A DNA stretch of 43,000 bases, taken from NCBI GenBank assembly GCA_020344055.1, contig CP070813.1, positions 1,108,548 to 1,151,547 of the forward strand. Direction: 5' to 3'. Below the pieces are notes generated by a model. That model ran no database searches, was not told where the DNA came from, and saw only the letters and a list, made by a program, of their open reading frames with translations. Positions 10,896-15,226 of the stretch are shown here, in pieces. How positions within the stretch are numbered: the stretch's first letter is position 1; each line of letters begins with the position of its first letter. The DNA comes from Candidatus Zixiibacteriota bacterium. GTDB taxonomy: Bacteria; Zixibacteria; MSB-5A5; UBA10806. Both the position numbers and the translations under genes were made by a program.

Positions 10896-12308
10896 ATGAG
10901 CGATCCCGAATTCAATAAAATCACACCCGAAATTTACAAAGCGTTGAAAAATATCGTAGGGGATAAATACATTTTCACTGAAAAATTCGACCTCGAGCCC
11001 TATTCCCACGATGAGACCGAGGACCTGGTGTTTTATCCCGAGGTGGCGGTGCTGCCAGCGTCCACAAAAGATATCTCGGAGATAATGAGTCTTTGCCATG
11101 AGAATAATATTCCGGTTACTACCAGAGGAGGAGGCACAGGTCTTTCGGGAGGGGCTCTGCCGGTTTACGGCGGAGTTATTCTCTCCACCGAAAGACTGAA
11201 CAGGATAATCGAGATCGACACCGAAAACCTGATGGCGGTGGTGGAACCGGGTGTAATCACCCATAACCTGCACCAGGCGGCGGAGGAAAAAGGTTTGTTC
11301 TATCCGGTCGATCCGGCATCCAAGGAATCCTGCACCATCGGCGGCAATATCGCCGAGTGCGCCGGCGGGCCGAGAGCTCTGAAATATGGCGTAACCAAGG
11401 ATTACGTTTACGGGCTGACCTGCGTCCTTCCCGACGGCCGGGTATTCAAGACTGGCGGCAAACTTTTAAAAAACGTTTCGGGGTATAATCTTGCACAATT
11501 AATCGTCGGTTCCGAAGGCACATTATGCATAGCCACGGAAATAATCCTGAAATTGCTTCCTCTTCCGACACACAAACGGACCCTCCTCGCCCCATTCGAT
11601 TCTCTTCAGGACGCCGCAGAGGCTTTAACACAGATATTCATGAAAAAAATAATCCCCTCCGCGGCGGAGTTTATCGAGCAAGCGGCTATCAAAGCGGCCG
11701 AGGATAAATACGAGAAAAAATTCCCTCATTCCGATGCCGTCGCATTGCTTTTGTTCGAAGTTGATGGCGACCGCGAGGACGTCCTTGACGAGCAGGCTGA
11801 GAAGATCGGCGAGATCTGTGTAGAGTATGGCGCCGAGGACGTTTTCGTGGCCGACAACCCCGAAAAGCAGGAGGAGATGTGGCAGATGCGGCGCAATATA
11901 GGCGAGGCGGTAAAATCGATAGCGATTTATAAAGAAGAGGATACTGTCGTTCCCCGCGCCCGGCTGCCGGAGCTGGTGGAGAAGATCTCCGCCATATCGA
12001 AAAAACATGGAATCCTGACCATCTCCTACGGCCATGCCGGCGACGGCAATATCCACTGCAACATCATCAAGAAAGATATTTCCGACGAGGATTGGAACGA
12101 GAAGCTTCCAAAAGTGATCGAGGAGCTGTTCCGGGAGGTGGTGATTTTGGGTGGCTCCATCTCCGGCGAGCACGGTATCGGCTGGGTGCAGAAAAACTAT
12201 CTCCCCATCGCCTTGAGTAAAGTCGAACTGGAGTTGATGAAGAAGATCAAAGAGGTCTTCGACCCCAAAGGTATCCTGAACCCGGGTAAGCTGCTGCCGG
12301 ATTTATAA
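10896..12308 (+). CDS. glcD: FAD-linked oxidase, glycolate oxidase subunit GlcD / D-lactate dehydrogenase type
   Basis: The protein has 470 residues, the normal length for the family. It oxidises a 2-hydroxy acid (glycolate, D-lactate or similar) using FAD and passes electrons to a partner or the quinone pool. FAD-binding PCMH domain: TRGGGTGLSGGA (76-87), SCTIGGNIAECAGG (145-158), VSGYNLAQLIVGSEGTL (194-210). C-terminal FAD-oxidase domain: YGHAGDGNIH (378-387) and SGEHGIGW (423-430), where the His residues belong to the active site. CGGAGAG precedes the ATG. No glcE or glcF (FeS subunit) lies beside it, so the electron partner is elsewhere or the enzyme works alone. Confidence 0.88.
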   Translation: MSDPEFNKITPEIYKALKNIVGDKYIFTEKFDLEPYSHDETEDLVFYPEVAVLPASTKDISEIMSLCHENNIPVTTRGGGTGLSGGALPVYGGVILSTERLNRIIEIDTENLMAVVEPGVITHNLHQAAEEKGLFYPVDPASKESCTIGGNIAECAGGPRALKYGVTKDYVYGLTCVLPDGRVFKTGGKLLKNVSGYNLAQLIVGSEGTLCIATEIILKLLPLPTHKRTLLAPFDSLQDAAEALTQIFMKKIIPSAAEFIEQAAIKAAEDKYEKKFPHSDAVALLLFEVDGDREDVLDEQAEKIGEICVEYGAEDVFVADNPEKQEEMWQMRRNIGEAVKSIAIYKEEDTVVPRARLPELVEKISAISKKHGILTISYGHAGDGNIHCNIIKKDISDEDWNEKLPKVIEELFREVVILGGSISGEHGIGWVQKNYLPIALSKVELELMKKIKEVFDPKGILNPGKLLPDL

Positions 12309-12411
12309 CGATCAAATTACATTTGATATAATTAATATCAAGGTACATTCAGGCAACATTATTCTTATTATACCGTATTACGTTTATAATTAAAAAAACG
12401 GGAGGATCATA

Positions 12412-12810
12412 ATGGGCAACGAAACAGAATCTATCAAAAAGGCGGCGCTGGATTATATCGAGGGGTGGTATTCGGCCAGCCCGGAGCGGATGGAGCGGGC
12501 GTTGCATCCCGAACTCGCCAAAAGAATTGTGCTGAATATTGAAGGGACGGATAATCTGCGAGCCATAACTTCCGAACGATTAGTAGAGGCGGCAAAAAGC
12601 AGAAACGAGGACAAAGAGGCGCTGGATAAAATCGAGTGCGAGATACTGGATGCTCATGGCGACATGGCCTGCGTCAAAACCGTTTGCCCCGATTTTATCG
12701 ACTATATTCATCTGGCGAAATGGGATGGACAGTGGAAAATCATCAATGTTCTCTGGGAATTTACCCCGGAAGGCAGAAAGAGAATGGAAGCGGCGCAAAA
12801 GCAAAAGTAA
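12412..12810 (+). CDS. NTF2-like 'putative lumazine-binding' protein
   Basis: The protein has 132 residues. The order helix (ESIKKAALDYIEGWYSAS), helix (PERMERALHPELAKR), then strands ending MACVKTVCPDFIDYIHLAKWDGQWKIINVLWE is the SnoaL/NTF2-like fold in the form often called putative lumazine-binding. These cone-shaped dimers bind small ligands; members near this one have no proven reaction. GGGAGG 6 bases before the ATG fixes the start. A possible -10 TATAAT lies at 12385-12390, but its -35 is poor. Gene stands alone. Confidence 0.75.
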   Translation: MGNETESIKKAALDYIEGWYSASPERMERALHPELAKRIVLNIEGTDNLRAITSERLVEAAKSRNEDKEALDKIECEILDAHGDMACVKTVCPDFIDYIHLAKWDGQWKIINVLWEFTPEGRKRMEAAQKQK

Positions 12811-12839
12811 AACAGTTGCCGGTATCCTGTCGATATTAC

Positions 12840-12868
12840 TTGACAAAAAATTTCCGCAACATAATAAT
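12840..12868 (+). promoter_or_regulatory. Promoter upstream of the 19-codon ORF
   Basis: TTGACA at 12840-12845 and AATAAT at 12863-12868 are 17 bases apart. The -35 is perfect and the -10 matches 5 of 6. Predicted transcription starts near 12875, about 50 bases ahead of the small ORF and 230 bases ahead of rsgA. Confidence 0.65.
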
Positions 12869-12902
12869 ATCGATTGCGTATCAAACTCAGGCGAACTTTA
12901 AA

Positions 12903-13020
12903 CCCGGAAAGGAGGCTTGTACAGATGATTGTCGTAAATACCGATAATAATCGTACGTCTCGTCTCCGGGTGAGAAGCCGCTGAATTCTTAGTTGGTTTT
13001 TAATATAGATAGCCTTCTCA
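12903..13020 (+). promoter_or_regulatory. Candidate attenuator / structured leader RNA ahead of rsgA
   Basis: CCCGGA (12903-12908) can pair with TCCGGG (12965-12970), closing a loop that contains the ribosome site and start of a 19-codon ORF. Directly after it, TGAGAAG (12971-12977) can pair with CTTCTCA (13014-13020), which is the 5' arm of the terminator at 13011-13038. The two pairings exclude each other, as in transcription attenuators. I matched it against motifs of common riboswitch classes that I know and found none. Regulation of rsgA by it is inference. Confidence 0.4.
12925..12984 (+). CDS. 19-residue Arg-rich small ORF (leader peptide or small protein)
   Basis: The ORF encodes MIVVNTDNNRTSRLRVRSR. 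AAAGGAGG at 12908-12915 lies 9 bases before the ATG, stronger than the site of most genes here. Five of the last ten residues are Arg, written with five different codons (CGT, CGT, CGG, AGA, CGC; four kinds). The ORF has its own promoter (12840-12868), and its end overlaps a segment able to pair with the terminator that follows 26 bases later. It could be an attenuator leader for rsgA, or a stand-alone small message. An RNA element with a chance ORF is the main alternative. Confidence 0.45.
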   Translation: MIVVNTDNNRTSRLRVRSR

Positions 13021-13038
13021 TCGCGAGAAGGCTTTTTT
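13011..13038 (+). terminator. Rho-independent terminator before rsgA
   Basis: AGCCTTCTC (13011-13019) and GAGAAGGCT (13025-13033) form a perfect 9-pair stem with a 5-base loop, followed by a T run. Its position between a promoter/small ORF and rsgA is what suggests attenuation. Confidence 0.85.
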
Positions 13039-13104
13039 ATTGCGCGATACCTAAGTTTTCGCGTAATAACAACACCGGTTTTTTGAAATTGAAAGGTAAT
13101 TACG

Positions 13105-14208
13105 ATGAATTTAATAGATCTGGGCTGGAACGATTTTTTCGAGGCTCATTTTGAATCGATTGATATAAAAGATGTTAAACCCGCCAGGATAGCCGTCCAG
13201 CAGAAAGACAGGTATATCGTCTATTGCGAGAAAGGAGAGCTGCGGGCGGAGATCTCCGGCAAATTCAGGCATAAGGCCCTGTCGAAGGCCGACTACCCCA
13301 CCGTCGGCGACTGGGTGGCCGTTACGGTCAAGCCTGAAGGCGACGGTGCCGTTATTCAATCACTCCTACCCCGGAAAAGCAAATTTTCCCGCAAAGCGGT
13401 ATTGGCCGGCGGCCCTAAGTACGGCGACGGTAAAACCGAGGAGCAGGTGCTCTCCGCCAATGTCGATTCCGCCTTTATCGTTTCCGGCCTCGACGGCGAA
13501 TACAATCTCAGAAGGTTGGAACGGTATGTTGCCGTGGCCTATGACAGCGGTACCTCGCCGGTGGTGCTTCTGAATAAGTCCGATCTCTGCGAAGATGTCG
13601 ATAGCGTTATATCCGAAGTCGAGAGCACCGTGATAGGCGTATCGGTGCATTCCGTAAGCGCCATCATCAAAGATAGTCTTGAAATATTGAAAGACTATCT
13701 GGGAAAAGGCAAAACGGTATCTTTCCTGGGATCGTCGGGTGTCGGCAAATCGACAATTATCAATTCCCTGCTCGGCTACCAACGGCAAAGAACCGGCGAG
13801 GTGCGCGATTACGACGGTAAGGGGCGTCACACCACCACTTACCGGGAGTTGATTGTCCTCCCGGAAGAAGGCATTTTGATCGACACGCCCGGCATGAGGG
13901 AAATCGAGATCTGGGGCGATGAGGAAGGCCTGTCAAAAGCGTTCGATGACATCGATAAACTCACCGCTCAATGCCGTTTCAACGACTGCGGTCACGGAAA
14001 CGAGCCGGGGTGCGCAGTCAAGGAGGCGCTGGATAAAGGAGAACTGGATGCCGATCGCTACCAAAATTACCTGAAACTGCAAAAGGAACTGAGACGGCTG
14101 GCTTTGCGGAAAATGGGAAAGGAAGCTCATTATCAAAAGCTGCAGGGAAGAAAATTCGCCAGCATGGTGAAAGAGGTTAAAAAATTAAAAAACTTTAAGA
14201 GGAAATAA
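13105..14208 (+). CDS. rsgA: Ribosome small-subunit-dependent GTPase RsgA
   Basis: The protein has 367 residues. RsgA (YjeQ) binds the 30S subunit late in assembly and hydrolyses GTP to check or release it. Layout: N-terminal OB fold with YPTVGDWVAV (64-73), then a circularly permuted GTPase with NKSD (157-160) ahead of the P-loop GSSGVGKST (209-217) and DTPG (260-263), and the C-terminal zinc knuckle Cys290-Cys295-His297-Cys303. TTTYREL between is the switch region. AAAGGT precedes the ATG. It lies behind a terminator-bearing leader, so its expression may depend on read-through. The APH-like kinase follows 19 bases later and is probably co-transcribed. Confidence 0.95.
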   Translation: MNLIDLGWNDFFEAHFESIDIKDVKPARIAVQQKDRYIVYCEKGELRAEISGKFRHKALSKADYPTVGDWVAVTVKPEGDGAVIQSLLPRKSKFSRKAVLAGGPKYGDGKTEEQVLSANVDSAFIVSGLDGEYNLRRLERYVAVAYDSGTSPVVLLNKSDLCEDVDSVISEVESTVIGVSVHSVSAIIKDSLEILKDYLGKGKTVSFLGSSGVGKSTIINSLLGYQRQRTGEVRDYDGKGRHTTTYRELIVLPEEGILIDTPGMREIEIWGDEEGLSKAFDDIDKLTAQCRFNDCGHGNEPGCAVKEALDKGELDADRYQNYLKLQKELRRLALRKMGKEAHYQKLQGRKFASMVKEVKKLKNFKRK

Positions 14209-14227
14209 TCCCTAACAGGGCATAAAT

Positions 14228-15226
14228 ATGGACTGCAGAAGCGAACAGCTTTTTGAAAAACATCGCCATTATATACTCGCTAAAGCCGCCGAATTCTACG
14301 CAGTAACAACAAACGACCTGATAAAATTAGGCTCTTTCGAAAGCCTGGTATTCGAGTTCTCCCGCGGCACAGATAATTTTATACTTAAATTGACACACAG
14401 CTTACACCGCAGCCGGGACCAGATCATGGGAGAGGTCGAATGGGTCGATCATCTGAAAAAAAACGGCGTCTCGGTATGCGGGGTAATCCCCTCAAACAAC
14501 GGCAATCCCGTCGAAACCATTGAGATCGAGGATTCCTATTTTATAGCCTACGCGTTTGAAAAGGCGCCCGGGAATCACGCTGAAAAAGGCCAATGGAGCA
14601 ACGATCTGATCCTGGAATGGGGCAGAACGCTGGGACGGATTCACGCCGCCACCGGGGTTTTCAAGCCCAGCCGCGAGTCATACAGGAGATTCCACTGGTA
14701 CGAGGATGATACGTTAAACGCGAAAAAATATATCCCCGCCGATCAGCGAAAAGTGATAAGCAAAATCGAGGATCATAAAAACAAACTCCGTTCATGGCCC
14801 GTGGATGAGAAATCCTATGGCCTGATCCACAGCGACATACACAACTGGAATTTCTACGTTCATAACGGGGGACTGCGCGTTTTCGATACCGACGATTGCC
14901 ATTACAACTGGTTGGCCTATGATATCGGTATACCGCTCTATTACGCCCTGCGCACGGCCGAGATCGGCGATGACAATGTCGAATACGCACGGTACTTCTT
15001 CAAGCTTTTTATGGAAGGTTATAAAAAGGAAAACAAAATCGACCCCGTCTGGATTACCCGCATACCCGATTTCGTGAAATTGAGGGAGATGGACCTGTAT
15101 ATAGTTATCACCAGGGAGGGCATAGCCGACGCCAACGACTGGTGCCGGAGATTCATGAAAGGGCGACGGGAAAAGATTGAAAACGACGTGCCCTTCTTAG
15201 ATCTGGACTTCTCAGAATTCTGTTGA
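14228..15226 (+). CDS. APH-family phosphotransferase (aminoglycoside phosphotransferase fold)
   Basis: The protein has 332 residues. The family phosphorylates small molecules (aminoglycosides, choline, homoserine, sugars) with ATP. Visible motifs: Lys54 in FILKLTH and Glu69 in GEVEW (ATP site), the catalytic loop HSDIHNWNF (201-209) with Asp203 and Asn206/208, and the metal motif DTDD (220-223). The sequence is closest in flavour to the general 'phosphotransferase enzyme family' rather than to resistance enzymes, so an antibiotic role should not be assumed. It follows rsgA by 19 bases. The ribosome site is weak (CAGGG). Confidence 0.8.
   Translation: MDCRSEQLFEKHRHYILAKAAEFYAVTTNDLIKLGSFESLVFEFSRGTDNFILKLTHSLHRSRDQIMGEVEWVDHLKKNGVSVCGVIPSNNGNPVETIEIEDSYFIAYAFEKAPGNHAEKGQWSNDLILEWGRTLGRIHAATGVFKPSRESYRRFHWYEDDTLNAKKYIPADQRKVISKIEDHKNKLRSWPVDEKSYGLIHSDIHNWNFYVHNGGLRVFDTDDCHYNWLAYDIGIPLYYALRTAEIGDDNVEYARYFFKLFMEGYKKENKIDPVWITRIPDFVKLREMDLYIVITREGIADANDWCRRFMKGRREKIENDVPFLDLDFSEFC

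Follow-up and report, generated by a model that had tools for sequence, protein, structure and literature searches.

In the stretch of DNA analysed here (43,000 nucleotides, hereafter the window), a gene for an RsgA-family GTPase is preceded by a promoter, a short arginine-rich open reading frame (ORF) and a transcription terminator. Do these parts form a regulatory element, and if they do, what does it sense? The first-pass annotation had proposed a leader-ORF attenuator with mutually exclusive RNA folds ahead of rsgA, and permutation tests and folds support this proposal. The feature is very probably a ribosome-mediated transcription attenuator, in which early stalling on the leader is predicted to give the ON state and free translation the OFF state. 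The host genome is a single contig of 3.83 Mb, and the closest named relative of this rsgA is from Candidatus Zixiibacteriota.

The element and its near relatives

All the parts are on the forward strand. The promoter, Shine-Dalgarno (SD) sequence, ORF, terminator and match between ORF end and terminator arm, all annotated before, were confirmed to the base. The promoter for the leader and rsgA2 (12840-12868) is of the sigma-70 type and agrees with the consensus at 11 of 12 positions; its -35 TTGACA (12840-12845) and -10 AATAAT (12863-12868) are separated by a 17-nt spacer. The leader SD, AAAGGAGG (12908-12915), is a near-perfect complement of the 16S tail and is kept in relatives. It serves an ORF of 19 codons, MIVVNTDNNRTSRLRVRSR (12925-12984), that starts with ATG at 12925 and stops with TGA at 12982-12984. 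The CCCGGA/TCCGGG helix of the earlier annotation is present and is read here as P1, in which ACCCGGA beside the SD (element 1, 12902-12908) pairs with TCCGGGT (element 2, 12965-12971). The antiterminator strand, GTGAGAAG (12970-12977), lies in the ORF end and is complementary to the 5' arm of the intrinsic terminator T1 (13011-13038), TGAGAAG (12971-12977) being the reverse complement of CTTCTCA (13014-13020). T1 has nine perfect pairs (arms 13011-13019 and 13025-13033) followed by a U run, and its stem begins 26 bases past the leader stop. A hairpin without a U run (13037-13069, -14.3 kcal/mol) follows, and rsgA2 occupies 13105-14208. The upstream gene (12412-12810) encodes a putative lumazine-binding-family protein (PF12893), and it precedes the element in the same-genus genome G001 as well.

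The locus has the layout expected of an attenuator: promoter, SD and short ORF are followed by an intrinsic terminator and then by the regulated gene. It also has exclusive terminator and antiterminator folds with a strand inside the ORF, the pairing in the window being modest. Taken alone, promoter-like and terminator-like sites in the window are no more numerous than in shuffled sequences (2 versus 2.9 and 3 versus 2.5, respectively), and each 7-bp helix, taken singly, has a chance of about 2% in shuffles. Because these single signals are weak alone, the case for the element rests on comparison. The whole leader RNA folds at -58.9 kcal/mol, compared with -37.9 kcal/mol for dinucleotide shuffles (z -5.1). 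A scan of 12300-14300 found the 12840-12868 site as the only promoter-like site on the forward strand; a separate promoter at 13040-13105, which the annotation had named as grounds for abandoning its reading, was not found.

In G001 the core of the element is 94% identical. The -35 is kept, the -10 region is largely kept, and the SD, helix and T1 are retained; the stretch from the terminator to rsgA has diverged in length and sequence. A plain DNA similarity search recovered the element from G001 alone, which at first suggested that it was not conserved; a further DNA match, in G006 (L004), was rejected as a chance match of 25 nt within coding sequence. As described below, the ORF, the helices and their placement before this rsgA are conserved in relatives, as the annotation had asked, and this conservation confirms that the element is real.

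RsgA2 and its leaders across the class

The regulated gene encodes a paralogue of RsgA of 367 aa, here called RsgA2. It matches PF03193 (161 bits) and TIGR00157, and its nearest solved structures in the PDB are RsgA. The GSSGVGKS and DTPGM motifs and residues C290, C295, H297 and C303 are invariant, and the GTPase and zinc motifs are intact. The genome has its canonical rsgA at another locus, which makes the window gene a second RsgA. RsgA2 shares the GTPase domain, P-loop, DTPG and zinc motif with canonical RsgA/YjeQ (E. coli RsgA, B. subtilis YloQ/CpgA), but it forms a separate subfamily of about 350-370 aa that is an extra copy under leader control. In a maximum-likelihood tree, whose RsgA2 set came from Zixiibacteriota, Bacillota, Cyanobacteriota, Planctomycetota, Acidobacteriota and others, 45 RsgA2 and 13 canonical RsgA of the class were split with 100/100 support. 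The RsgA2 tree follows genome families loosely: the protein of L007, from the same family as the window, groups with L008, L015 and L113, and the window and G001 proteins cluster with that of L098. Such a mismatch between tree and families suggests that RsgA2 has been exchanged between lineages.

Other genomes of the class keep this plan ahead of their copies of this rsgA, in sequence that is unrelated. It consists of a sigma-70-like promoter, AAAGGAGGCGTR, an ORF mostly of 17-22 codons, T1 and usually a second terminator, T2. YACGCC(C) stands at the end of the leader ORF, in many cases with a GGGAGG-like run after it, and in most relatives the T2 5' arm (GCGGGCGTGAC) repeats the SD-side segment. 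The classical attenuator elements can thus be assigned in these relatives, with the SD side as element 1, the ORF end as element 2 and the arms of T2 as elements 3 and 4; the two-terminator relatives have a textbook 1:2/2:3/3:4 switch. T2 is recognisable in many class leaders and its 5' arm is intact in same-family L007, but some leaders (e.g. L133, L137 and L138) are without it. The T2 of the window's genus has probably decayed, and the hairpin at 13037-13069 is its probable counterpart, judged by position. The first-pass annotation had missed that the regulated RsgA is a second paralogue, that relatives have a T2 which copies the SD segment, and that the likely operon includes an amicoumacin-kinase-like gene (see below).

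Leaders were sought as ORFs within 600 nt upstream of 51 RsgA2 loci from 10 families of the class; two of these loci (L059 and L139) share an identical leader and count as one genome. An SD-led ORF of 14-26 codons was found at 47 of the 51 RsgA2 loci and at 4 of 30 canonical rsgA loci. Inspection by eye of the four loci missed by the scan revealed leaders in L110, with a weaker SD, and in L116 and L117. Both helices exceeded fixed thresholds at 30 of the 51 RsgA2 loci and at none of the 30 canonical loci. Of 45 class leaders, 33 had a promoter-like site ahead of the SD; the rate in shuffles was 5%. In L099, L106, L127 and L130 a further SD-led small ORF, possibly a second leader, lies between the leader and rsgA2 (MIDMRIYRVSPFPNGI in L099).

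Pairing within leaders was compared with permutations in which each leader's segments were paired with segments of other leaders. Permutation was used in place of a covariance model because the spacing of the elements is too variable and permutation is more direct; shared ancestry is not fully corrected in these tests, as related loci are not fully independent. The leaders' own 1:2 score was 18.28, compared with 15.16 (sd 0.41) when permuted, and their own 2:3 score was 23.04, compared with 19.08 (sd 0.45); none of 5000 permutations reached either value. In the 27 leaders with an anchored T2, 86% of the columns between ORF end and T2 arm were standard pairs, compared with 78% (sd 1.5) when permuted (0/5000), a conservative result given that a few rows are mis-anchored. 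Two-sided changes, C-G/T-A and A-T/G-C, occur in these columns. Pairing of the ORF end with the T1 zone was weaker but positive across the class (6/5000).

These comparisons bear on two readings that do not invoke the leader as a switch for rsgA2. The first is a free-standing small RNA, or a dual-function small mRNA, with its end at T1 and a coincidental position upstream of rsgA2. The RNA does have a stable fold with its own promoter and terminator, and the rsgA2 start is at a variable distance, 120 to 331 nt past the leader stop among class loci. However, the element is tied to RsgA2 and not to RsgA1, the association spans phyla, complementarity between ORF end and terminator is under selection, and there is no other promoter-like site ahead of rsgA2. 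The exact element pattern is also rare away from rsgA2: it had seven matches in 129 class genomes, four upstream of rsgA2 and three elsewhere that look like chance, the reversed control giving two. We regard a free-standing RNA as very unlikely. The small transcript of about 165 bases that the annotation had offered as an equal possibility is instead expected as the OFF product of the attenuator, and does not stand as a separate rival.

The second is a metabolite riboswitch or protein-binding leader. The strong structure would suit it, but the conserved part is the pairing around the ORF and not an aptamer-like unpaired core. Rfam covariance models had no match at the gathering score in the window or in the leaders of tested relatives, and at a relaxed E-value the single kind of match, CRISPR, was judged to be chance. 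A riboswitch or protein-binding leader is extremely improbable here.

Ribosome position and the switch

Under the preferred reading, ribosome-mediated attenuation, transcription would start from the 12840-12868 promoter and meet T1 before rsgA2. With free translation, a ribosome at the 3' end of the leader would mask the antiterminator strand and T1 would form, giving a short RNA and the OFF state. With a stall in the first codons (1-5), the ORF end is computed to pair with the terminator 5' arm, that of T1 in the window and of T1 and/or T2 in relatives, which would permit read-through into the rsgA2-kinase operon. Translation past codon 10 would lead to the OFF state. The product would be a second, inducible RsgA that, given the function of its family, probably acts on 30S subunits.

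This scheme was modelled with transcripts cut just past the terminator 5' arm and with pairing barred under a 30-nt ribosome footprint. In the 27 T2 leaders, the mean probability (P) of pairing between ORF end and T2 arm was 0.84-0.86 with the ribosome at codons 1-4 and 0.06 or less with the ribosome at codons 10-18. For T1 of the window, antiterminator P was 0.22 for early stalls, 0.98 at codons 10-11 only, and zero from codon 12; in G001 it was 0.6. In these folding models ribosome position thus switches the fold clearly in the 27 T2 relatives and less so in the window. The annotated mechanism holds in these computations: the terminator is released when the ribosome is close to the ORF end, and the antiterminator can form when the ribosome stalls earlier. 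The window copy is a simplified form that has lost T2, and how far it can switch is predicted with less confidence than for the relatives; with T2 gone and a T1 antiterminator that is weak at equilibrium, it may be leaky or partly decayed.

The same models address a sensor of ribosome availability, in which failed initiation on the leader, with few active 30S subunits, rather than stalled elongation would be the signal and would provide feedback on 30S maturation. The target is a 30S maturation GTPase, the SD is almost perfectly matched to the 16S tail, and one fold of the window's RNA accommodates both P1 and the antiterminator. The mean antiterminator P of ribosome-free T2 leaders is 0.66, suggesting that absence of initiation may also be an ON state. 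On the other hand, five leaders (L006, L104, L107, L126 and L142) are predicted to be closed without a ribosome (P 0.09 or less), and the 1:2 pairing is selected, which is sensible if the ribosome-free state must be OFF. Availability sensing is unlikely to be the main signal.

A trp/his-type attenuator that senses charged tRNA-Arg is suggested by the leader peptide, in which arginine makes up four of the last eight residues in the window and 14% of leader residues in the class. The Arg codons, however, lie in the pairing strand at the 3' part of the leader (90 in codons 11 to the end versus 26 in codons 2-10 in class leaders), where a stall would mask the antiterminator and lead to termination. 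There is no run of cognate codons placed to free the antiterminator, and the regulated gene is not in the cognate pathway: rsgA2 is not an arginine gene and its probable operon pairs it with an APH-fold kinase. The pairing segment is in another reading frame in L104, L107 and L111, all of one family, and lies past the ORF stop in L116 and L117, and arginine is only 5.5% of residues in leaders from Bacillota and cyanobacteria. Arginine supply, which the annotation had named beside translation state, is thus a highly improbable signal. Since Arg clusters in the pairing segment and is scarce in the other phyla, the abundance of Arg at the leader end is best explained as a side effect of the CACGCC/CGGGAGG pairing strand.

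A conserved peptide signal was also rejected, given the changes of frame and the segments outside the ORF. The RLR motif of macrolide leaders occurs in the window, is YLR in G001, and is missing from most of the 45 class leaders. Leader codons 2-5 are more alike, with Thr2, Ala3 and Val/Ile4-5 frequent (M-T-A-[IV]-V or a similar start); as speculation, early Ala and Thr might favour stalls by particular drugs.

Inducer, precedents and other phyla

The attenuator preferred here would respond to a block in elongation, and antibiotics that target the ribosome, or a similar failure of ribosomes, are its most likely cause. Amicoumacin has the 30S subunit as its target. The gene downstream of rsgA2 (14228-15226) starts 19 nt after it, probably in one operon, and encodes an APH-fold kinase that matches amicoumacin kinase (PDB 6sui, 6sum) over nearly its full length (6sui, E 3e-64), a homology by sequence that does not prove phosphorylation of an antibiotic. 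The kinase is present in 19 of 129 class genomes, every one of them RsgA2-positive, and in 12 of the 19 it lies downstream of rsgA2 on the same strand within 2 kb (nominal P 1e-8, relatedness ignored).

The best precedent is Listeria monocytogenes HflXr (lmo0762, leader rli80), a second ribosome-GTPase paralogue whose leader attenuator is induced by lincomycin and erythromycin and in which mutation of the leader start codon lowered read-through (PMC6310831). With rli80 and uORFC-6-1 before hflX of Bacillales (PMC8632094), the leaders described here share a short leader ORF, exclusive terminator and antiterminator, and control of a second paralogue while the housekeeping paralogue is outside control. 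They differ in that HflX splits 70S ribosomes whereas the target here is RsgA (30S) with a kinase in the operon, in the absence here of the conserved RLR, and in the two terminators and repeated SD-like segment of relatives. Leaders of ARE-ABCF genes (vmlR, cplR, lsaA) and erm-type leaders (PMC10201436) likewise use short uORFs for transcription and/or translation attenuation by stalled ribosomes, but ABCF leaders have 3-4 codons as compared with mostly 17-22 here, and here the regulated protein is an RsgA GTPase and the range spans Zixiibacteriota, Bacillota and cyanobacteria. The feature falls in the known class of leader-ORF attenuators, and is set apart by the RsgA target and the distinctive two-terminator layout of relatives; a search of the literature, mostly non-subscription papers, found no report of RsgA with attenuation, a leader peptide or a uORF.

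RsgA itself has been linked to drugs: its loss sensitises E. coli to gentamicin (PMC10295648), and in Streptomyces an RsgA paralogue (SCO6149) is among the WblC-activated genes under tetracycline (PMC7157823). The WblC/WhiB7-SCO6149 case likewise involves an RsgA paralogue switched on in translation stress (PMC7157823), but by a transcription factor and not a leader, and SCO6149 is compared here as an RsgA paralogue in general. On the strength of the downstream kinase homologue, the HflXr precedent and these links of RsgA to drugs, the inducer is probably a translation-inhibiting antibiotic. A role of RsgA2 in resistance to such inhibitors is suggested solely by the leader and the neighbouring kinase. 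RsgA has so far been viewed as a housekeeping 30S maturation factor; given that stall-sensing leaders recur on RsgA2 in phyla whose forms of attenuation differ, and that a drug-kinase homologue lies beside it, ribosome maturation or protection may have an inducible branch. More tentatively, and with somewhat less than even confidence, RsgA2 could be a widespread, so far overlooked GTPase that protects or repairs ribosomes against antibiotics directed at the 30S subunit. It would be the 30S equivalent of HflXr, with stalling as its inducer through leader attenuators in three or more phyla and, in Zixiibacteriota, with a drug-phosphorylating kinase as its partner. The multi-phylum attenuator class, missing from Rfam, supplies candidate genes and organisms for a possible defence of 30S subunits by RsgA paralogues.

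A crude leader scan at RsgA2 loci found leaders at 27 of 41 loci in Bacillota, 22 of 28 in cyanobacteria and 2 of 9 in other phyla. Nostoc, Fictibacillus and Brevibacillus are among the carriers that can be cultivated. Those nine loci, from Planctomycetota, Acidobacteriota, Spirochaetota, Ignavibacteriota and others, are mostly without a leader in the scan, and leader control is therefore not universal in RsgA2. Own 2:3 pairing exceeded permutation in Bacillota (0/2000) and cyanobacteria (6/2000); own 1:2 pairing in cyanobacteria was not significant (590/2000). In Bacillaceae, ACAGCCC of the leader is complementary to GGGCTGTG in the terminator arm, and the ORF contains CCCTC opposite the GAGGG of the SD. 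In Brevibacillus/Paenibacillus and in cyanobacteria the partner of the leader end is a segment immediately ahead of the rsgA2 start, a layout pointing to translation attenuation. Leaders of RsgA2 in Bacillota and in cyanobacteria follow a similar logic, frequently by attenuating translation. The rsgA2 of Listeria likewise comes after a short leader ORF, MAIVKMENLIINTGVFYL (L203:1343-1399), and its SD is covered by a GCTCC..GGAGC hairpin, which makes translation attenuation likely there too. On plasmid pMGMM7 of Lysinibacillus fusiformis (L204), the RsgA2 gene is followed by fosM, a fosfomycin-resistance gene.
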